Source: Daucus carota subsp. sativus
Taxonomy: Eukaryota > Streptophyta > Magnoliopsida > Apiales > Apiaceae
Reading direction: 5' to 3'
Assembly (NCBI RefSeq): GCF_001625215.2
Contig: NC_030381.2
Span: 37,260,689-37,324,688, forward strand
Length of the DNA stretch: 64,000 nt
How positions within the stretch are numbered: position 1 is the stretch's first letter; the number at the start of each line of letters is the position of its first letter. The notes below the pieces were generated by a model. The model did no database searches and was not told the origin of the DNA. It saw only the letters and a program-made list of their open reading frames with translations. The position numbers were made by a program, and so were the translations under genes. Below, in pieces: positions 14,401-62,502 of the stretch.

Positions 14401-17400
14401 TAATCATGTATGGGCATGAAAATCAAGATAGTGACATTTCCCTCGAGCGTGTAAGCATGCTCAACTTTGGGGATCCATATCGAAAACATCAAATGACCTG
14501 TCGGTGCGTACACTAATCTTATATATTTTGAGGAAAAATCTATAATTTTTGTAAGAACAAAGAAACTAAATCTGTACTTTTGATGCACAAATTCATACTA
14601 TATCAGGTATCTTAAGAAGGCACCAACACCATGGACAGCAATCACCACTGCGTTCCTGTTCTTTGTGATTGGTCTATTGGTTGGCTACATGACATATGGT
14701 GGAGCAATTCATATTGTTAAAGTGGAGGATGATTTCCATGAAATGCAACTACTGAAAGTTCGAGCAGAAGCTGCTGACGTTGCTAAATCACAGGTTTCAA
14801 TCTACCACTTTTTTTTTAAATTTTAATTATGGTAATATTTATATTTGATTTGTTGTTTGAATTGATACCTTTATCAGATAAACACTTTCTGAATTTTATG
14901 TATGTTTTCCTGTTCAGTTTCTAGCTACCCTTTCCCATGAGATTAGAACTCCGATGAATGGCATTCTTGGTGGGTTCTTATTCCTTTCCAGTTCCCTGTT
15001 ATTGGCTGGAGTCAATTTCTATTATAAGATATAGTCTGTTAACTTTACATATCTTATTATAGGGATGCTTGCCTTGCTTCTTGATACGGATTTAAGCTCA
15101 ACCCAAAGGGATTATGGTCAAACTGCTCAGGCTTGTGGAAAGGCGCTGATAACTTTAATTAATGAAGTCCTTGATAGGGCCAAAATTGAAGCCGGAAAGT
15201 TAGAGCTAGAGGCAGTCCCATTTGACATCCGCTCCATATTAGATGATGTCCTTTCTCTATTCTCTGAGAAGTCCAGGCACAAGGGTATCGAGGTAAGATA
15301 TACTCAAATGTTTTAATCGGTTTATCACTTTCTTGCAGTCATAACTATGATGGCTAATGTGCTGGTAATAACATTCCAATCTTTTCTTTCTTGCTTTGTT
15401 ATATTGTATTTGATTCTTATTCTGCTGGGGAAGTAAAGTTGGCCGTGTTTGTATCTGACAAAGTTCCAGAAATGGTTATGGGGGATCCTGGAAGATTCAG
15501 GCAGGTTATTACAAATCTTGTGGGCAATTCTGTCAAGGTAAGGAATTATTAACCCCATGCAGATTTCTTTTCCTTCTTTTCTGCATGAAACATCATACAT
15601 GACTAAATTGTAGATAATCTCCCCTTTAAAGTATAAAGTATCCTCTGAGTTATCTTTCTTTTGAAATGGGGCAGTACTTTATACAATATATCCCTCACTA
15701 AATCTACTTTTCGACAGTTTACAGAACAAGGACATGTTCTTGTTCAAGTCCATCTTGCTAATCATGCAGAAACTTTAATGAAGACAAAAGCTGACAGCTT
15801 CATTAATGGAGATTCTGAAGGTGTAGTTTTATCAGGTGGGAATCGGTTTAGTACTCTAAGTGGTCGTGAAGTGGCTGAAGATATGCATAGTTGGAAAACC
15901 TTCAAGAATTTGATTCTTGATGAAGAGTCCCAGTACTTAGACAGTCAAAGAGCAAGTACCGCAGATGAAGCATTTCAGAATGTCAAACTGATGGTATCCG
16001 TCGAGGATACAGGAATTGGGATCCCCTTAGGTGCACAAGAACGCGTATTCACACCGTTCATGCAGGCAGATAGTTCAACTTCTAGAAATTATGGGGGTAC
16101 TGGTATTGGATTGAGCATTAGCAAGTGCCTGGTTGAGTTGATGGGTGGTCGGATTAATTTTATTAGTCACCCTCAGATCGGAAGTACATTTTCATTTACT
16201 GCCAGCTTTAGAAGGTGCCAGAAAAATGCAAATGGTGATATGATAAAACCTCACTCCGCTGATTTACCTGTGGCATTCAAAGGACTGAAAGCAATTTTAG
16301 TGGATGAAAAAAAAATTAGAGCTACTATAACAAGATACCAATTAAAAAGACTTGGTATACTGGTTGAAGTTGTAAATAACATTAGGACCGTACTCTCCAA
16401 CTCTGGCAGCAAAAATGGTTCTGTAGGATCAAAGTAAGTTTTATCATTCTGTTCTATTTTATCTTTCCATCTTTCTGACTGTCGCAACTCAATTTGATCT
16501 GTTACTTAAATTACTACATGTTGTGGCAGCAGTGATTGGCAGCCAGATATGATTCTCATTGAGAAGGATTCATGGTTATCCGGTGAGAATGATTGCTTTG
16601 ATATACGACTTTTGGAATGGAAACAACATGGCCATATGGTTAATCTGCCCAAGATAATCCTTCTTGCAACTAATATCACTAGCACTGAGTTTGAGAAAGC
16701 AAAAGCAGCAGGTTTTGCAGATACTGTGATCATGAAACCTTTAAGAGCAACCATGGTGGCGGCATGCCTTCAACAAGTAATGGGAACGGAAAAGAAAGCA
16801 CAGCATGAGAGAGACATGATAAATGCATCTGCTTTTCTTCGTAGCTTGCTTTGTGGCAAGAAGATACTGGTGGTTGATGACATTAGGGTAAACCGCAGAG
16901 TTGCTGCTGGCGCACTCAAAAAGTTTGGAGCTAGTGTGGAATGTGCCGAGAGTGGGAAAGATGCCCTCGCATTGCTTCAGCTACCACACAATTTTGACGC
17001 ATGCTTCATGGATATTCAAATGCCTGAAATGGATGGGTATGTTTTAATGTCCTCTGTGAAATAGTAGATGTTAAATACATCTTCATTTTTGAGTTTCATA
17101 CTGAATTTTGCCGATTAAATCAAACTTTAAAATATCGGGAGTATACTTGTGGCTTTATAAATTATGATACTACAATTTTATACTCTGCAGTTTTGAGGCA
17201 ACTCGTCTTATCCGAATGTTGGAGAGCAAGGCAAATGAGCAGATAAATGGAGGAAACGATGTTGAAGGAACTGCAAAAGGGGGGAAGTGGCATTTGCCAA
17301 TATTAGCTATGACAGCCGATGTCATCCATGCCACTTACGAAGAGTGCCTGAAATGTGGAATGGACGGTTACGTTTCAAAGCCCTTTGATGAGAAGAGTCT

Positions 17401-44042: not shown

Positions 44043-44105
44043 TAGGAGCTCCAGCTCATTACGATATACACTCTCTCCTCTTGATAACTCCTGCAAGCAG
44101 TGATC

Positions 44106-46177
44106 ATGGAGATTTACTCAACTATTATTGCACTAGTTTTCTTCATCTTCTTGATCAAACTGCTCAAGAAATCTAAAACCTCCAAAACAAGTACGAAAAA
44201 TCTTCCCCCAGGTCCACTAAAACTACCCTTTGTTGGTAATCTGCCACAAGTAGCTGCAGCCGGTAAAGTTCCTCACCTAGGCCTGCAAGCATTAGCCAAG
44301 AAACATGGGCCTGTCATGCAACTTCAGCTTGGAGAGATCCCTCTAGTTGTCATTTCATCAGCTAAAGCTGCAGAACAAGCACTACGAACCAATGACCTTG
44401 CTCTCGCGGATAGGCCATCGCTTCTACTTGGTGAAATTGGCCTGGCAAATTGTAGAGACATTGTTTTTGCACTCTATGGGGATTACTGGAGACAAATGCG
44501 CAAGATATGCAAATCGGAACTCCTGAGTGTCAAGAAGGTCAGGTCATTTCGTGCTATTCGAGAAGATGAGTCCCAGCATCTCCTGGAAAATATTAAAAAT
44601 TCTGTTGGATCGCCTTTCAATTTCAGTGAAAGTGTCGCGGGTATGGCACATGGGGTGATTTCTAGAGCGACAACTGGAAAGAGAAGTGATGATGAGCTTG
44701 TGAGGATTGTTGAGGAGATTTCGTATTGGGGTGCAGGTTTCCTGGTTCCTGATTTGTTTCCGTCAATCAAGTTCCTCCCTACTCTTACTGGGATGAAAAA
44801 GGAGATACAGAAGTTGAGAAACGCGGTTGATCCTATATTTGATTCGATCATTGAGGAGCATAGAGAAAAATTGGCTAGAAAAAAAGAACGAAAAGCAATG
44901 GATAACGACGCAGATGAGGAAGATCTCATTGATGTCCTGCTGAGAGTTAATGAGAATGAACGCCTCGAGTTTCCTATGACATCAAATGACATTCAAGGAA
45001 TTGTACTGGTAATGAACTCATTTATTAGTAACTGCTTTATAATTATTTTATTTTGGAGTAAGTTACATTTTGCACCTCATAAGTTTAAGCGTTTTTTCGA
45101 TTTGGTATCAAACAAAAATTTTTATCAATACACACCCTAATGTTTAAAAAATGATTCGATATGCAACCTTTTAACCATATTCCGTGACTGTTAAAATTAA
45201 CGGATGCAGGGTTAAAACAGTAATTTTGTAAACTCTCTTCTACTGATTCTTTCCATACAAAATTATTGGAACTCCTGTAATCGTTAATTTTAATAGTCAA
45301 CTTCACGTGATATGATCAAATGGGTGCATATCGAAGCTCTTTTTCAACATTAGGGTGCGTATTGACAAAAAATTTTGTTTGAGACTAAATCGAAAAAACG
45401 ATTAAACTTATAGGGTGCAAAGTGTAAATTAATCTTTATTTCATTAGTAACTGCATTATAATGAACTCTAGAATTTTCAATTTCTAAAAATCCTGTTTCA
45501 ATCCTGGTTTGGTCGCTGCAATTTAAGATGTTCCTCGTAATTATGTGATGCAGGACCTGTTCACAGCCGGAATAGATACCACTTCAGCTGTGATCGAATG
45601 GGCTATGACGGAGTTAATGAAAAATCCTAGAGTCATGAACAAAGTGCAAGCAGAAGTACGTCAAGTCCTCAGAGGAAAAGAAACGATAAATGAAGATGAC
45701 ATTCAAGGATTGAGTTACTTCAAACTGGTGATCAAAGAAGCTCTCCGATTGCACACACCTCTTCCCTTACTATTACCTAGACAATGCAGAAAAGAATGCG
45801 AGATTGATGGTTACCACATTCCTGTGAATACCAAAGTCATTATCAATGCATGGGCTATTGGAAGAGACCCTAAATTTTGGGTTGATGCTGAAAGTTTCAA
45901 ACCGGAGAGATTTGAGAACAATCCTGTTGATTTCATCGGCCTCGACTATGATTACTTACCCTTTGGATCAGGGAGGAGAATGTGTCCAGGCATGAATTTT
46001 GGTATAGCAGGAGTGGAGCTTCCTCTCATTCAACTGCTCTACCATTTTGACTGGGAGCTTCCTAATAATATGAAACCTGAAGATCTTGACGTGGAGTATG
46101 GCATTGGATCAACTACTAAGAGAAAGAATCACTTGATCTTGATTCCCACCTCTGAATATGCAGCTCAGATGGCTTAA
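44106..46177 (+). CDS. CYP71-clan cytochrome P450, tandem copy 1 (2 exons, 508 aa)
   Basis: Membrane-anchored haem monooxygenase; substrate unknown. Exon 1 is 44106-45008 and exon 2 is 45554-46177. N-terminal membrane anchor about residues 4-20 (IALVFFIFLIKLL), proline hinge LPPGPLKLP, I-helix oxygen motif AGIDTT 306-311, ExxR 363-366 (EALR), PERF 418-421, haem loop FGSGRRMCPG with Cys445. The single phase-0 intron before (D/E)xFxAG is the standard CYP71 position. The pattern fits the CYP71D/CYP71BE part of the family, often used for terpenoids, but no substrate can be inferred. It differs from copy 2 at scattered sites, including the B-C loop. The 545-bp intron contains an inverted-repeat insertion absent from copy 2. 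Start 44106 chosen as the first ATG; the upstream in-frame codon is GTG. Confidence 0.93.
45057..45436. mobile_element. Inverted-repeat MITE in the intron of P450 gene 1
   Basis: Left arm about 45057-45148, starting near 'agtaagttacattttgcacc'. It is matched in inverse by the right arm about 45346-45432, ending near 'ggtgcaaagtgtaaattaat'. Arms are about 85 bp. A 20-25 bp repeat ('attagtaactgc.ttataat') occurs on both sides at 45024-45045 and 45444-45465. Copy 2's intron lacks the element. Confidence 0.75.
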
Positions 46178-49159: not shown

Positions 49160-49226
49160 TGGGAGCTCGAGATCATTACGATATATCAACACTCTCTCCT
49201 CTCGATAACTCCTGCAAGAAGTGATC

Positions 49227-51163
49227 ATGGAGATCTACTCACCTATTATTGCACTAGTTTTCTTTATCTTCTTGATCAAACTACTCAAGAAATCTAAAAC
49301 GTCCAAAACAACTAGGAAAAATCTTCCCCCAGGTCCACTGAAACTACCCTTTGTAGGTAATCTGCCACAAGTAGCTGCAGCTGGTAAAGTTCCTCACCGC
49401 GGTCTGCAAGCATTAGCCAAGAAACACGGGCCTGTCATGCAACTTCAGCTTGGTGAGATCCCTCTAGTTGTCATCTCATCAGCTAAAGCGGCAAAACAAG
49501 CACTACGAACCAATGACCTCGCGCTTGCAGATAGGCCAGCTCTTGTACTTGGCGAAATCATCTTGGCAAACTGTAGAGACATTGTATTAGCACTCTATGG
49601 GGATTACTGGAGGCAAATGCGCAAAATATGCACATTGGAACTCTTGAGTGCGAAGAAGGTCAAGTCATTTCGTGCTATTCGAGAAGATGAGTCCCAGCAT
49701 CTCCTGAATGACATCAAAAATTCTATTGGAACGCCTTTTAATCTCAGTGAAAGTGTCGCTGATATGGCACATGGGGTGATTTCTAGAGCGGCAACTGGAA
49801 AGAGAAGCGATGATGAGCTTGCCAAGATTGTTGAGGAGATATCGTATTGGGGTGCGGGTTTTCTGATCCCTGATTTGTTTCCATCAATCAAGTTTCTTGC
49901 TACTCTGACTGGGATGAGAAGGGGTATACAGAAGTTGAGAAATGCGATTGATCCTATATTTGGTTCGATCATTGAGGAGCATAGAGAGAAGTTGGCTAGA
50001 AAAAAAGAAGGAAAAGCAATCGATAACGATGCGGACGAGGAAGATCTCATTGATGTCCTTCTGAGAGTTAACGAGAATGAACGCCTTGATTTTCCTATGA
50101 CATCAAATGACATTCAAGGAATTGTCCTGGTAATATAATTACTTAATTTATCATTAATACTTTCAATATCGGGTTCTGTATATGCAGGGGCGGACATAGT
50201 CTCTATATACTCAGCTGGTTAGCTAAGCGAGCCTAACTCCACATTTGTCCGTTTTGGGCCTAACTCACTAGACTTTGTTTTTAAGCACCTCTCAAAAGGT
50301 CTTGTATTATTAGAGTTGTTCTGACGGCTTATATTCTAGCTTTATGCCCCTCAATATGGGACAACTCTTAACAATGGAGACTAAAGACCTCGAATACCAT
50401 ATATATTCTGCAAGGAGAACATTCTAAAATATATTACCATGCAACATAAGCTTACATCCATATAATAATTAGTTAATTTTATTGATTGCATGCACTACAC
50501 TTTTCAAATTTTAAAGTTCCTCGTGATTATGTGGTGCAGGACATGTTTACAGCCGGAATAGATACCACTTCAGCTGTAATCGAATGGGCTATGACGGAGT
50601 TGATGAGAAATCCTAGAGTAATGAACAAAGTGCAAGCAGAAGTACGTCAAGTCCTCAGAGGAAAAGAAACAATTAATGAAGATGACATTCAGGGATTGCC
50701 TTACTTAAAGCTGGTGATTAAAGAAGCTCTTCGATTGCATACGCCTCTTCCCTTACTATTACCTAGACAATGCAGGAAAGAATGCGAGATTGATGGTTAC
50801 CACATTCCTGTGAATACCAAAGTCATCATCAATGCTTGGGCTATTGGAAGAGACCCTGAATATTGGGCTGATGCTGAAAGTTTCAAACCGGAGAGATTTG
50901 AGAACAATTCTGTTGATTTCATCGGGCTCGACTATGATTACTTACCGTTTGGATCAGGCAGGAGAATGTGTCCAGGCATGAATTTTGGTATAGCAGGAGT
51001 GGAGCTTCCTCTCATTCAACTGCTCTATCATTTTGATTGGAAGCTTCCAAATAATATGAAACCTGAAGATCTTGACGTGGAGGATGCCTTTGGATCAACT
51101 ACTAAGAGGAAGAATCAGTTGGTGTTGATTCCCACTTCTGAATATGCAGCTCAGAAGGCTTAA
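49227..51163 (+). CDS. CYP71-clan cytochrome P450, tandem copy 2 (2 exons, 508 aa)
   Basis: Second member of the tandem pair, same length and exon sizes: exon 1 49227-50129 (903 nt), exon 2 50540-51163 (624 nt). All diagnostic motifs are kept: LPPGPLKLP, AGIDTT, EALR, PERF and FGSGRRMCPG. The proteins are very similar, with changes that include the B-C loop (RPALVLGEIILANCRDIVLA here against RPSLLLGEIGLANCRDIVFA in copy 1). That region corresponds to substrate recognition site 1 in P450s. The intron is 410 bp and lacks the MITE of gene 1; it contains 'caggggcggacat', possibly a transposon terminus. The upstream region carries three insertions that gene 1 lacks, so expression may differ. Both genes look functional; the substrate is unknown. 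Confidence 0.93.
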
Positions 51164-52320
51164 TAAATTATTTGGTTTGAGTTAGTACTTGCAGGACATG
51201 CAACGGATTAAGGATATACATCAAACAAATAACAGATATATTAAGCTTTGAGAAAAAATAATATCCCTTCACAACCTCTCTTATTCACTTGAAATTGTAT
51301 ATTTAAATAAATAACCTGTTTGGTGAGTATGAATTTGAATTTTATTTATTAGTATAAATTTGACAATATTCTGAAGTGATACCTCAATTATATTATAGTC
51401 CAATCATATAATTGAAATGAAATACACATTTCCCAATGCCCGCTAAAATTTTTATATTATAAAATTTAACTATATTTGATAAATTTTAAAATTTAAATTA
51501 TTATTAGGGATATTCTTCAAAGGAAAATGTGAAGAAATAATTGGTAGGAAATATATGTTAATAGGTCCACGGTATGCCCATTTTTCTTAATTTTTTAAAG
51601 TTATTTCACAATTTCTTTTTAATCTCGATGACCAAATTCAATATAAATAATTGAATGAGATGGAAAAATGAAATAATAATTATTATTAACTTAAGATATA
51701 ATAAGTGTAAGTTTGATTAATGTGATGTGTTCCTTGAAATTTTAGAAAAGCTTTACAATAGTATGAAAATTATATAATATAAATAATTGACACTATTCAT
51801 CTCATATAAATTTTATAACGTCTTTTTCAAAGAGTTCGGTTATAATCGTCGACTAAATATATCATTTTAATAAGTTAATAAGTGATTTGTAATCTTATTA
51901 CAAACTTTTTATAGGCATATAGTGTAACGACGAATATAGTCATCAATAAAAAATTGGCTACAGTTATAGATAAGGGTGTGTATGATTGAGTGTCATTTTC
52001 CGGGGTTAGAGTATAATTTTTATTTTTGTTATGTCAACTGAAATTTAAGTTGAGCCTTCTCATGATTGGAGATGCTTTACCGGTGTAAAAACGGGGAGAG
52101 CTGGATTTAAAATGAGTAGTGCTAGATGCACATAATTGTGTACATAATTTTTGTACATAAAAATGTGGCAAGTGATGTGGACTGGGGTTGTTGATATAAA
52201 TGCATGGGCTCATTTCAATTAAAACTCACCACATATCATTATATACACGTTTTTTTATACAAAATACAATCATGGGCACCGTCAAAAAAAAACACGAACA
52301 CGAGATGCTTTATAAACTTG
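51164..52320. other. Intergenic, no gene recognised
   Basis: AT-rich 3' flank of P450 gene 2. No element with clear ends was seen. Confidence 0.45.
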
Positions 52321-52330
52321 CTTTCCACAA

Positions 52331-52430
52331 TTGGGCCAGAAGGCCCATGGCAATCTAAAACCTTAAGCCCGTAACTGAGAAAAGCCCATGCTCTCGCTCC
52401 CTCCTAGGGTTTGTAGACGGCGCTATATAT
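52331..52430 (+). promoter_or_regulatory. Promoter of the snoRNA cluster: site II motifs, telo-box, TATA
   Basis: TTGGGCC (52331-52337), GGCCCAT (52342-52348) and AAGCCCATG (52382-52390) are site II-type motifs. TAGGGTTT (52405-52412) is a telo-box and CTATATAT (52423-52430) a TATA box. In plants this combination is known from snoRNA and ribosomal-protein gene promoters, and the order here (site II, telo-box, TATA, then snoRNAs 160 bp later) fits that plan. Confidence 0.75.
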
Positions 52431-52588
52431 CTATGCATCTTCTCCGAAACAGAGTAGTCTGTGGCTGAGCTAGGCGTATCAGACCCTACTGTAGAATTTA
52501 TAGTTCTTCTTTTCTTAAGATATATCGTTATTATTTATTTTCATTGCTATGTTTTAAAATTCTAGGATTGTATAAAATTTTGAATTGA

Positions 52589-52675
52589 GTCTCTGATGAT
52601 GATTCACAAAATACTTTCGTTCTTCTGAGATTAAAGTCTATGTGGAAATTTTATGGAGACCTGAACTGAAGAGAT
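52589..52675 (+). ncRNA. Box C/D snoRNA 1 (U59/snR54-like guide)
   Basis: C box ATGATGA (52596-52602), D box CTGA (52666-52669), and a short terminal stem TCTCT/AGAGA. Inside, ACTTTCGTTCTT followed by CTGA forms a D' guide that is antisense to the 18S rRNA sequence AAGAACGAAAGT as I remember it, the target of human U59 and yeast snR54. The box-D guide (ATGGAGACCTG) is complementary to a conserved 25S segment (CAGGTCTCCA). A 2'-O-methylation guide function for both rRNAs is inferred. Confidence 0.82.
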
Positions 52676-52742
52676 TTGCGCATTCAATTATATTATATTT
52701 TTTGTTATTTTGGTGTGTGTATTTTAGTAGTTAGACATGTTT

Positions 52743-52828
52743 GCTTCTAGTGATGATTTCAAAAATACTTTCGTTCTTCCGAGATTAAATTCTGTGAGGA
52801 AGATCATGGAGACCTGAACTGAAGAAGC
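52743..52828 (+). ncRNA. Box C/D snoRNA 2 (U59/snR54-like guide)
   Basis: C box GTGATGA (52750-52756), D box CTGA (52819-52822), terminal stem GCTTCT/AGAAGC. That stem differs from the stems of its neighbours yet still pairs, which is compensatory support. The same 18S-directed block ACTTTCGTTCTT is present but is followed by CCGA, a weakened D' box. It shares the box-D guide ATGGAGACCTG. Confidence 0.82.
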
Positions 52829-52877
52829 CTTGATATGTTTGATTTTGTGTACAATAGTACTATTGCAGTGTTAATTC

Positions 52878-52959
52878 AAATCTCTAATGATGATTACCGT
52901 TAAAACTTTCTGAATTAATGTTGTGCTGAAAGTTATGGAGACCTGAACTGAAGAGATTT
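52878..52959 (+). ncRNA. Box C/D snoRNA 3 (shares the D guide, lacks the 18S guide)
   Basis: C box ATGATGA (52887-52893), D box CTGA (52948-52951), perfect 8-bp terminal stem AAATCTCT/AGAGATTT. The box-D guide ATGGAGACCTG is kept, but the sequence before the D' box (CTGA at 52910-52913) is GTTAAAACTTT instead of the 18S-directed block. Either it guides a different site or the D' guide has decayed. Confidence 0.75.
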
Positions 52960-53092
52960 CAAGTTTTTGTTGTGAGTCAATTTTGTTATGACATTTCTAA
53001 GTACATTTCAAAATCCGGTGTTTTATATATTTAGCTCGTTTTTTATTGGTGTTGATTTTATATATGCAGAGGGTCTACTCTTATCGAGAATT

Positions 53093-53350
53093 ATTCTCTC
53101 CATTTCAATTACATATCCACTTTAAAAAAATCACATAATTTAAGAAAAGCGAATTTTGAGAAAAAAGAATAGTATTAACTCATTGAACATTCTATGTGAT
53201 ATATGATTGATCTTAGAAATACAAATTAGAAATATATGAAAGATAATTATTTTGGAAATATAAGCTTACGTTGAAAGTTGAAGTCGACAAATATTTTGAA
53301 ATAATAAATTTTTTATAAAATGAACATGTATTATGAAACGGAAGGAATTT
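53093..53350. mobile_element. Degenerate Stowaway-like MITE
   Basis: Left CTCTCCATTTCAATTACAT; inverse right near ATGTATTATGAAACGGAAGGAAT. Ends are degenerate and the TA flanks unclear. Confidence 0.4.
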
Positions 53351-54180
53351 AAGTCAATTAAAATAAGTTAAATTTGTAAAATTTAGTATTTAGTATGTGC
53401 TCATGGACATATCATTGTAAAATCTTTTAAAAAAATGTTCAAAAAATTTCTTTGAAAAAAGTGAGACATGTATTTTGACATAAATTCTTTTCTAAAAAGA
53501 CATGTAGTAATGATTCAAAGAGTAAGTCCAAGGATGTCCTAAATAGGGATGACAATCGTTTCGTGTTTTGTGTACCGGAAGGTGAAACCCATATTCGACT
53601 GTTATTAATTTCGTGTACCTAATTTGAACCTTATCCAATGCGAAAACGTTTCGTGTATCTTTCGTGTACTTTTTGTGTACTTTTTACATTAAAATATTCA
53701 TATAAATAAATACTCTAACAGTATCCTAGAACAATAAATATTGTAAATGGATCGGATATCCAATCCGATCTGATACGTGGTTAAATAAATGAATATAGAT
53801 TCGATCTGTTAATAATCTAGTCCAATAAAAAGTGGATATGAATATTGTCAAATCCGATCTGTTAATAATCCAATCCGATCCACGTTTAGCTATATTATAT
53901 CGTATCGTAATATATTATATCATAATATATAATATTATGTTATTACATGTAAATTAAAATTTTCTTAAAATACAAGACAAAATCATAAATCATATTTTCT
54001 TATAACCGATCAGACCATAATATATATAGTACTATTTTTAATTTAAGTTTTCTAAAATCGTAAATCATATTTTTTTTTTTAAATATATAGTACTGTTTTT
54101 AATTTAAGTTTTTTAAAATTTTCCATTGCTCACTTTCGGGAGAGAAAACATACATTTAAAATTTTTAAAAATCTAAATTC
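53351..54180. other. Intergenic, one hAT-like terminus
   Basis: 'TAGGGATGACAATCG' at 53545-53559 looks like a hAT-type end followed by repeats of 'tcgtgtac', but no matching right end was found. No gene is recognised. Confidence 0.35.
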
Positions 54181-54184
54181 TACT

Positions 54185-54396
54185 TGGATTTGGTAGAACC
54201 CGAATTAAACCCAATTAGGGTCCCAGCCCCCAATTAGAGAATCTCTCGCTCTCCGTCTTCAGCAAGCTACTCTTTGTCTCAAATTCAGGTACATTCTTCT
54301 TTTGTCTACGTTTTTTTAGTATTGCCCTAATTAATGAGGTTTTTACATGCTTTGTAATTGTAAAAAAACAATTTCAAGCCGGATCTTGATCTGAAA
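54185..54396 (+). repeat. Deneddylase promoter/leader segment, copy A
   Basis: Contains 'cccaattagagaatctctcg', 'cttcagcaagctac', 'caaattcag|gtacattctt' (possible splice donor) and 'cctaattaatgaggttttta'. The same blocks in the same order occur at 57778-58010 and 60036-60236; the third copy lies closest to the DEN1-type coding exon. A second partial repeat of this copy's left flank (54120-54195) lies at 54590-54668. Confidence 0.8.
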
Positions 54397-55189
54397 TCCA
54401 TATGACCAAGCTTTCTTTTGATTTTTCCATATGATATCGGTGTAAATGTAGGAATTGAAGTAGATATTTTTAACTCAGTAATTCTTTTTCATCAAATATC
54501 ATGGACGGATTAAACTATTTCGTCTTTAAATCAGAAAATAAGGGATATTTCAAAATATATGCTACCATTTTTAATTTCAGTGTTTAAAATTTTTCCATTT
54601 CTCACTTTCGGGGGAGAGAAAGCGTGCATTTAAAAATTTTAAAAATCTAAATTCTACTTGAATTTGGGCCTCGTTTGGTTACCAAACGCAGTAACCCATA
54701 GTTCCATGGAACTTGTACCAGTTACATCGTTTGGTTGCATGACTTTGTAGTTGTACACTGGAACTCAAACTTCCACGCAATTTGTAGTTACGCTAAAACA
54801 CTGTAACCTAGTTACACACCTCAAGCGCGGGTACCGTAAGTTACATAGCTATCATATTTAAAATATACACTATATCAAAATTATAATCAAATATCAAATT
54901 TTAAATTTAAAAAAACTAATCCAAATTAAATGTTGTTTTACAATAATATTTGAAATTTAGTTATATTATCATTATATATATACAAATCATTTTAGATTTA
55001 AGATTTATATTCAGTTTGAATTATGGTATATATATACTTTATTTTCTATCATGGTTAATAATATTATACATACATACATATATATATATATATTAGATTT
55101 TATCATTCATTTATTCATGTTATAATAATAATATATGTTAATTTATTGTCATCTATTTTTCTTAATTTGTTTGTTATTTTTTTTATTAT
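54397..55189. other. Intergenic repeat debris
   Basis: 54560-54668 repeats 54070-54190 ('ctcactttcggg', 'aatctaaattctacttg'). From 54667, 'GGGCCTCGTTTGGTTACC' looks like a MITE left end without a seen partner. The rest is AT-rich. Confidence 0.4.
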
Positions 55190-55590
55190 TATTTTTTTTT
55201 GAAATCAAACCCAAAGATTACATTAATTCAAAAGATCGAATGAAAGAGCCTCCAACAAATACGCAGGAGGAGACGCGTAAACATTTTAGATATTAGCTAA
55301 ACAAGGGATTCTAGCCATTTCATATGCTACCCTGTTAGCATTTCTCCGAATAAATTGAATAGAAATATTAGGTGAATTCCTCAGCATCTGCTCGCATTCT
55401 GCTAGAATTTCTCCCACCTCCAGATGGTTCCTTTTATCACCCTTTATAGCACTTAGTGATAGCAAAGAATCTGACTCCAGCAACACTTCTATCTCATTAA
55501 TCTGGTGACCTTGAATCACGACAGAGCCTCCCTGATTCCCATAGTTTCAGCCTCAAATACTGATTCTACTCCTGACAAACATATTTTTTA
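55190..55590 (-). pseudogene. LINE-type RNase H-like (RVT_3) fragment
   Basis: On the minus strand, 55286-55519 translates to an RNase H-like C-terminal domain: an LLESDSLL stretch, then an EILAECEQML stretch, then FIRRNANRVAYEMAR (the family pattern is hRxxNxxAhxLA). Just upstream (about 55520-55560) an 'FEAETMGIREAL' piece in another frame completes the pattern, so there is a frameshift. The minus-strand 3' end (55190-55200) is A-rich, as in a LINE tail. Most likely a 5'-truncated LINE insertion. Confidence 0.65.
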
Positions 55591-55769
55591 AAACTAAAAC
55601 TCTAATAATAATATATTATTAAAATATTAACTCATTATAATATTTATTCAATTTTAAAGTCTTATTATTGTTATTTGAATTCTACATTTATTTTCTCTAT
55701 TTAAAATTTGTTAAATTTATTTTATTATACACACAACCTAATCATCAATATACTTATTATATAAAGGAG

Positions 55770-56405
55770 AAGCGAGGGGCGTGTAGGTGGCGCCTCTCAC
55801 ATCGCTCCGTTCTATTTTTTAAATTTTATGAAATTTTAGATGAAAAATATCAAAAAGAACTACCTTTTTTAATTTCGGGTATATTAGAAGCAAGTTTCAA
55901 AATATGATATTGTTTCAGATTATTTATGGAATATAGTAGCTTGAAAGTTTTAATCTGATTTTGTTTTAGATGATTTAATTATGAGAAAGAGTAGCGCACA
56001 AGTCTCTCTTCACCTATAAATACCCCTGTAGATTGTACGGTTTTAGATCATCTAAATATAACCTCCTCTCTCTCTCTCAATACCACAAAGCGAGGGGCGT
56101 GTAGGTGGCGCCTCTCACATCGCTCCGTTCTATTTTTTTAATTTTATGAAATTTTAGATGAAAAATATCAAAAAGAACTACCTTTTTTAATTTCGGGTAT
56201 ATTAGAAGCAAGTTTCAAAATATGATATTGTTTCAGATTATTTATGGAATATAGTAGCTTGAAAGTTTTAATCTGATTTTGTTTTAGATGATTTAATTAT
56301 GAGAAAGAGTAGCGCACAAGTCTCTCTTCACCTATAAATACCCCTGTAGATTGTACGGTTTTAGATCATCTAAATATAACCTCCTCTCTCTCTCTCAATA
56401 CCACA
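55770..56405 (+). repeat. 318-bp near-perfect tandem duplication in Helitron copy C
   Basis: Units 55770-56087 and 56088-56405 differ by about one base by eye. Each contains the 'aagcgaggggcg' module and a TATAAATA box (56015-56022 and 56333-56340). Very recent, or an assembly artefact. Confidence 0.9.
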
Positions 56406-61028: not shown

Positions 61029-61701
61029 CATGAATTATTACTTTACATATTACACGGGCCTTTAATGAATTTTTAAGTTTTTATTATCTTATGCTTTTAG
61101 CGAAAATATTACTTTACAACATTGGCCCAAGTTGGGACCATCGAAATTTATTACTTAAACGAGGTTATTACTTTATCGGATATTATTTAATCGAGGTTTA
61201 ACTGTAAGTGAATTGATTAATGATTTCATGCTCTTGCTTTTTCCATATATATATTTAAATTGATTGATGATTTTGATTGTGTTTTTACAAATTTTATCAA
61301 GTACGTTATGTGTTTGTGTGTCTAATTATTTTAAGTAGTTATGATTTGTGTAGTATTATCGCATTAATCTTGTTGAATGACATTTATACTTTATATCTCT
61401 CGCACTGTATTATCATATGAATATCATCGTGTTGCTTAATGTAGTAGATACAAGACTCTCTCTCTCTCTCTGTATCGGATAGTTTGAAACATCTTAGTAT
61501 GTGGATGAGTAATAAAGGATTGAACTAGACAACTAGTGTACATTAGAATGTCCAGTTTGGAATTGTTTACGCACGAGTCACTTTTGATTTTTAACCCTCT
61601 GGAAATGTTGACCTACAAGAGTTCTCTCAAGTCAGCTGTAATATTTATGTTGGTTCAATTATGGTGTTCTACTAAAATTTTCTTCTTCTTTTTTTACAGA
61701 C

Positions 61702-62502
61702 ATGGGAGATAAAATGGTATCCAACTGCAAAGATATTGTTTTAAGAAATTCAGATATTGACACTCTAAAAGGACCATGCTTTCTCAGTGACCAGATCATT
61801 GCATTCTACTTCACTTATTTGTCTTGTTCCTTCAACACCAAAACTGATATGCTGTTAGTACCACCTTCCATTTCTCTGTGGATTGCTAATTGTGAGGATA
61901 CCACTTGTGTTGAAGACTATGTTCGGTCTTGTGAGATGTCGAGCAAGAGGCTTGTCCTTTTTGTCGTAAATGACAATGAGGATTTTGGCGGGGGAGACGG
62001 TGGAAACCATTGGAGCATCCTTGTGTATGATAGGACGAAGAATCTATTTCTTCATTTTGATAGCATGATGGGAGTGAATACTCCTTATGCTGTGAAGCTT
62101 TACGATGCTCTCAAGGAATTCATGGGGCCAGGTGGCGAATCTTCAATCCCACATACTTCATCTTCGCTGACAAAACAACAGAGGAAAAAGAAGAAAAGCG
62201 GGCCATCTGTTCAAAGAGGGTCAAAACCCACCCAGCCACCTGTAACCAGAGAATCAGAAGCCACTGTAGTTTCTGGTTTGCCCATGTTTGCCGAATGCGA
62301 GACGACCCCTCAACAACAAAATGGATATGATTGTGGTCTGTATGTGCTAGCTATTGCTAGGGCTATCTGTCAGTGGTGTTCCGAGGAACATAAGAGGACT
62401 GACATGATTTCAACAATAGAGAAGAACGTTGATTCTTCTGTGGAGATGAAAATGCGAAGTCAGGTGTTGGAGATCATACGCGAGATGGCTGCGGATAATT
62501 GA
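61702..62502 (+). CDS. DEN1/NEDP1 (SENP8)-type NEDD8-specific protease (266 aa)
   Basis: C48 (Ulp1) cysteine protease predicted to process NEDD8/RUB and remove it from non-cullin targets. The catalytic triad is His103 (GGNHWS), Asp120 (LHFDSM) and Cys211 (NGYDCG), with oxyanion Gln206 five residues before the Cys. The N-terminal pattern (LLRNSD/LKGPCFLSDQIIAFYF) and short length are typical of DEN1 and not of SUMO proteases, which carry long N termini. A basic linker (KQQRKKKK, about 159-165) lies between Asp and Cys. The coding part is one exon. The start is two bases after a TTTTTACAG acceptor, so a non-coding first exon upstream is expected; candidates are the leader copies at 60.1, 57.8 and 54.2 kb. 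All catalytic residues are present. Confidence 0.92.
   Translation: MGDKMVSNCKDIVLRNSDIDTLKGPCFLSDQIIAFYFTYLSCSFNTKTDMLLVPPSISLWIANCEDTTCVEDYVRSCEMSSKRLVLFVVNDNEDFGGGDGGNHWSILVYDRTKNLFLHFDSMMGVNTPYAVKLYDALKEFMGPGGESSIPHTSSSLTKQQRKKKKSGPSVQRGSKPTQPPVTRESEATVVSGLPMFAECETTPQQQNGYDCGLYVLAIARAICQWCSEEHKRTDMISTIEKNVDSSVEMKMRSQVLEIIREMAADN

Follow-up and report, generated by a model that had tools for sequence, protein, structure and literature searches.

The stretch of carrot DNA analysed here, referred to below as the window, comprises 64 kb (G000:C1:37260689-37324688, from an assembly of 441 Mb in 11 contigs) and carries a cluster of three box C/D snoRNA units arranged in tandem, with a group of promoter motifs upstream (Table 1). 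An Rfam scan of the whole window assigned all three units to family RF00160 (snoZ159/U59), each above the curated gathering cut-off of 39 bits, with E-values in the 64 kb search of 6e-13, 1.8e-8 and 2.4e-5 for units 1, 2 and 3. At the gathering score these units, all on the + strand, are the only Rfam matches in the window. A scan of positions 51801-53600 at a loose Rfam threshold gave eight further matches to other C/D families, all under their own cut-offs, and ARAGORN found no tRNA genes in the window. An earlier note, made from the letters of the sequence, had placed three C/D units at 52331..52959, likened them to U59/snR54 and suggested an Rfam check; the scan finds all three at that place and agrees with the family. 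The length of 82-87 nt given in that note is right for units 1 and 2 (87 and 86 nt between the Rfam ends) and too long for unit 3 (78 nt). The starts of the units are spaced by 154 nt and then by 137 nt.

Table 1. Features of the snoRNA cluster in the window and of the second locus (window positions, unless a contig is named)
Feature	Position	Strand	Score or pairing
Site II element TGGGCC	52332..52337	+	
Site II element (GGCCCA on + strand)	52342..52347	-	
Site II element (AGCCCA on + strand)	52383..52388	-	
Telo-box AAACCCTA (TAGGGTTT on + strand)	52405..52412	-	
TATA-like motif TATATAT, probable core promoter (putative function)	52424..52430	+	
Unit 1 (W1), long form, snoZ159/U59 C/D snoRNA	52589..52675	+	RF00160, 73.9 bits
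Unit 1 boxes	C 52596-52602, D' 52625-52628, D 52666-52669	+	
Unit 1 18S guide ACTTTCGTTCTT, upstream of D'	52613..52624	+	12 bp with AAGAACGAAAGT, 18S fragment of same genome
Unit 1 25S guide TGGAGACCTGA, upstream of D	52654..52664	+	11 bp with TCAGGTCTCCA, 25S fragment of same genome
Unit 2 (W2), long form, snoZ159/U59 C/D snoRNA	52743..52828	+	RF00160, 56.7 bits
Unit 2 boxes	C 52750-52756, D' CCGA 52779-52782, D 52819-52822	+	
Unit 2 18S guide	52767..52778	+	
Unit 2 25S guide	52807..52817	+	
Unit 3 (W3), short form without 18S guide, snoZ159/U59 C/D snoRNA	52880..52957	+	RF00160, 44.6 bits
Unit 3 boxes	C 52887-52893, D' 52910-52913, D 52948-52951	+	
Unit 3 25S guide	52936..52946	+	
Intronic long copy	C1:40637018-40637098		RF00160, 62.0 bits
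Intronic short copy	C1:40637170-40637246		RF00160, 40.0 bits

Two tandem cytochrome P450 genes of similar sequence lie upstream of the cluster (window 44088-46177 and 49209-51163), and the first large ORF of each matches PF00067. Other genes of the window are a piece of a histidine kinase that includes a CRE1/AHK4-type receiver domain (15649-16437) and one for an Ulp1-type protease (61642-62502).

The motifs upstream of the units follow the published definitions of the telo-box and the site II element, a combination described as the signature of plant snoRNA clusters (see PMC4660826). The telo-box/site II promoter claimed previously is thus present, with a telo-box, three site II elements and a TATATAT motif upstream of the units; both kinds of element are found within 1 kb and together with a TATA motif, as in plant snoRNA genes of the telo-box/site II type. 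This is the sole place in the window with a telo-box and at least three site II elements within 100 bp, and only one of 300 mononucleotide shuffles of the window produced a telo-box with three site II elements in that distance. A hairpin in the 5' leader (52425-52520) was considered as an RNase III-type processing signal and rejected, since its folding is no better than that of shuffles (z -0.20 and -0.54).

All three units have the elements expected of a box C/D snoRNA, i.e. a C box (RUGAUGA; ATGATGA, GTGATGA and ATGATGA in units 1-3), a D box (CTGA throughout) and a terminal stem, as had been noticed earlier; their D' boxes read CTGA, CCGA and CTGA. The earlier description of stems that differ in sequence and still pair also holds in the five copies of the family considered here, three in the window and two at a second locus (see below). 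The inner six pairs of the terminal stem are formed in 30 of 30 cells, three of them with changes on both sides, and the outer two pairs in 5 of 10. When the pairing partner was slid by 1-3 columns, 32-60% was paired, against 87.5% for the unshifted stem. Column shuffles separate the stem less clearly, as is to be expected with five related sequences: the covariation score is reached by 53 of 500 and the paired share by 78 of 500. In a set of this size the covariation of the stem is therefore not beyond shuffles, which counts against the interpretation given below. The folding energies of units 1-3 are also no better than those of shuffles (z 0.58, 0.14 and -0.41). Weak folding energy relative to shuffles is common among C/D snoRNAs.

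The RF00160 consensus is self-complementary around D'/C' (GUUCUUC/GAAGAAC; window 52613-52652), such that the snoRNA would itself contain a piece of the 18S sequence that it targets. A conserved inner stem of this kind, with its letters exchanged but its pairing retained in the short form (unit 3 has AACUUUC/GAAAGUU), was sought in the single copies. The longest runs, with G-U allowed, are 5, 6, 7, 7 and 8 pairs in units 1, 2 and 3, the intronic long copy and the intronic short copy, and were reached by 1515, 1102, 200, 348 and 150 of 2000 shuffles of the 3' side, respectively; single copies are thus not clear of shuffles.

On both strands taken together, the window has the 12-mer ACTTTCGTTCTT in two places (units 1 and 2) and TGGAGACCTGA in three, one per unit. 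Alignment of the guides to rRNA, proposed in the earlier note, was performed on rRNA fragments of the plant's own assembly (18S at C5:18497078, 25S at C4:28461668), and complementarity was found for both: 12 bp with the 18S fragment in three of the five copies, and 11-13 bp with the 25S fragment in all five. Both guides (to 18S AAGAACGAAAGT and 25S CAGGTCTCCA) are present in units 1 and 2 and in the intronic long copy. Unit 3 and the intronic short copy retain the D guide only, the longest D' match to the 18S site being 6 nt in each. The claims that the 18S guide is confined to units 1 and 2 within the window, and that all three D guides are directed at 25S rRNA, are thereby upheld. In C/D snoRNAs the methylated base is set by counting five bases up from D or D' (the D+5 rule). 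By this count the predicted marks are the last A of AAGAA in 18S and the first G of CAGG in 25S, the same bases as had been named before.

The same 25S site is found in the Rfam eukaryotic LSU consensus. The Rfam SSU consensus reads AAGagCG (lower case denoting variable positions) versus AAGAACG in the fragment and the guide, which counts against the proposed 18S target. Exact-pattern searches of the assembly gave a single hit for the 18S site, located in a partial SSU fragment, and two for the 25S site, of which one is in an LSU fragment of 469 nt and the other in a short LSU-like stretch that stays below the Rfam gathering score. The 469 nt piece, used as DNA query in a search that skips very common words, retrieved itself and six shorter partial pieces. 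There is no intact rRNA gene among these matches, and intact genes may lie elsewhere in the assembly; because the pairing was scored on fragmentary pieces, the evidence on the sites of the working rRNA is indirect. Partial 18S/25S fragments are scattered in the nuclear assembly (L011:7979-8503, L015:711-1001 and L016:4662-5130). A scan of genome contigs for the 25S site also returned a eukaryotic LSU rRNA fragment (L001:4128-4482, 188.3 bits) in a single bacterial record, a 1.16 Mb contig of Mangrovicoccus ximenensis; its presence there may reflect contamination or misassembly. None of three pattern scans for relatives in viral contigs gave a match.

A genome scan with RF00160, in which 62 of 106008 candidates were scored and matches to E 10 were retained, listed seven matches, five of them over the cut-off; the other two, at 25.5 and 25.0 bits, are treated as chance. 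Among 14 control genomes, 11 also gave matches, none of them over the cut-off. Five copies is a lower bound, because only that share of the candidates was scored. So far, at least five copies with the 25S guide and at least three with the 18S guide have been found. The two copies outside the window form a second locus on the same contig (C1:40637018-40637246, or L012:5019-5247), 3.3 Mb from the cluster. This long-short pair sits between two exons (joined by eye) of a gene with a 121 aa product that matches PF00428, 60s Acidic ribosomal protein (36.7 bits, cut-off 28.1), and which we take to be P3 (ribosomal protein P3-like). Exon 1 of this gene has one match in the genome, namely itself, and a search with its 67 residues by themselves gave no match in Pfam (E 0.001) or PDB (E 0.01).

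Comparison of the five copies suggests that the long-short pair was probably copied as a unit, because the long copies (unit 2 and the intronic long copy) are 90% identical without gaps (73/81), the short copies (unit 3 and its intronic counterpart) 87% (67/77), and both loci end in a short copy without the 18S guide. Within a locus, long and short copies are less alike (67% for units 2/3, 73% for units 1/3, 71% for the intronic pair), and therefore, judged from these pairwise identities, the 18S guide had probably been lost before the pair was copied, unless the order has been obscured by gene conversion. Unit 1 is 80% identical to unit 2 and 81% to the intronic long copy. In a low-stringency blastn comparison of window 50001-56000 with 9.9 kb around the P3-like gene, one alignment ran from unit 2 to unit 3 across the spacer between them (74.6% over 236 columns), and unit 1 was aligned too. 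For the promoter and both P3-like exons nothing better than E 2 was obtained, and the idea that the window cluster arose from the P3-like gene by losing the exons is thus unsupported. Three more blastn matches (E 8e-6, 3e-4 and 3e-4), away from the snoRNAs and in opposite orientation, look like dispersed repeats.

What the short form represents can be read in several ways. One tentative possibility is that selection maintains it as a stable isoform of snoR59 with a single guide, in tandem with the double-guide form at two separate loci. It is rather unlikely that unit 3 is a decaying pseudogene which has lost its 18S guide by drift and yields no stable snoRNA. Unit 3 is indeed the lowest-scoring of the three window units, the D' guide region is poorly kept, the short copies differing at 4 of the 12 positions that precede D' (by eye), and the other short copy may itself be decaying, because its C box (AGGATGA) deviates from the consensus. 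Nevertheless, in unit 3 the C box agrees with the consensus, the D box is kept, the 25S guide is identical and every pair of the terminal stem is formed, the short copies are still 87% identical over the 77 positions compared, and the block TGGAGACCTGAACTGAAGA, covering the 25S guide and the D box, is invariant in all five copies. We regard it as quite improbable that unit 3 has acquired a new D' guide against another RNA, which would make the short form a different double guide. This reading could draw on the retained D' box CTGA of unit 3 and on the stretches GATTACCGT and TTTCTGAATTAAT-like, which are common to both short copies; a common D' target is nevertheless unlikely, because of the same 4 of 12 differences before D'. 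Finally, chance resemblance without any snoRNA genes is a negligible prospect, refuted by the Rfam scan of the window: short motifs are common, with 11 instances of ATGATGA on the window's + strand, but the three units have the E-values given above and lie in tandem, on one strand and below a telo-box/site II promoter.

The family, the boxes, the guide complementarity, the promoter motifs and the second locus were all observed by computation, and on the strength of the sequence the locus is very probably a polycistronic box C/D snoRNA gene of the plant snoR59 (snoZ159/U59) family, with transcription, processing and methylation as its presumed activities. We propose that RNA polymerase II would read a single precursor from the telo-box/site II/TATA promoter at about 52330-52430. 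Cleavage and end-trimming of this transcript would release three C/D snoRNAs, each of them held together at its ends by the terminal stem and assembled with fibrillarin and the core C/D proteins. In all three units the D guide would target the first G of 25S CAGG for 2'-O-methylation, and in units 1 and 2 the D' guide would do so for the last A of 18S AAGAA; by inference, we equate these sites with Arabidopsis Gm1855 and Am978, respectively. Unit 3, short and with a single guide, would act only on the 25S site, and this form appears old enough to be common to the second locus in the P3-like intron.

The cluster is well-formed and ordinary, a further representative of a known plant snoRNA family, and constitutes a routine annotation that protein-based gene finding would miss. 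It also offers a well-resolved case of plant snoRNA gene spread, with a pair that occurs both free-standing with its own promoter and within a ribosomal-protein intron, and of which one partner has dropped one of its two guides. The recurrence of the single-guide partner at the end of both loci is its only uncommon trait, and a modest evolutionary point. If the short form is indeed a selected isoform, the dose of 25S Gm1855 could be set apart from that of 18S Am978.

The double guide and both targets are already known, because Arabidopsis SnoR59 is listed as guide for 18S A978 and 25S G1855 in the tables of a RiboMeth-seq map (PMC8053127); the promoter type is known as well. A snoR59 form lacking its 18S guide is not mentioned in the passages and listings covered, which came from searches under other terms, and this silence is no evidence of absence. 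The table in PMC8053127 does not give the SnoR59 gene variants. In an older numbering, SNOR59a and SNOR59b are listed for LSU G1845 (PMC6461891, as tabulated there), presumably the same site as 25S G1855. Equivalents of the 25S site are Gm1857 in tomato and tobacco and Gm1731 in the alga Ostreococcus tauri, according to a table that has no human or yeast entry for it (PMC11542601). For the 18S site, one table row holds AtsnoR59, human U59 and yeast snR54 (PMC3511168), and the human (Am1031) and yeast (Am975, in the numbering of that paper) marks are at the same 18S site. These two counterparts are designated I, and Arabidopsis snoR59 C, in the table of PMC2656528; if these letters stand for intronic and clustered, as we assume, human U59 and yeast snR54 are apparently intronic, in contrast to the clustered Arabidopsis snoR59. 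In the text of PMC5122169, snoR59 is counted among recent plant innovations, which sits oddly with its yeast and human counterparts. Plant snoRNA clusters with paralogous members are well known (PMC5122169). The carrot cluster resembles the plant polycistronic snoRNA genes of the telo-box/site II type in having a telo-box, site II elements and a TATA motif upstream of a same-strand cluster, with no notable difference seen. It also shares with Arabidopsis snoR59 and RF00160 the family, as assigned by covariance model, and guides for sites of the same kind, where the target bases are A and G; the carrot copies differ from Arabidopsis snoR59 in their number and arrangement, with three in a cluster and two in an intron, and in that two of the five copies are without the 18S guide.
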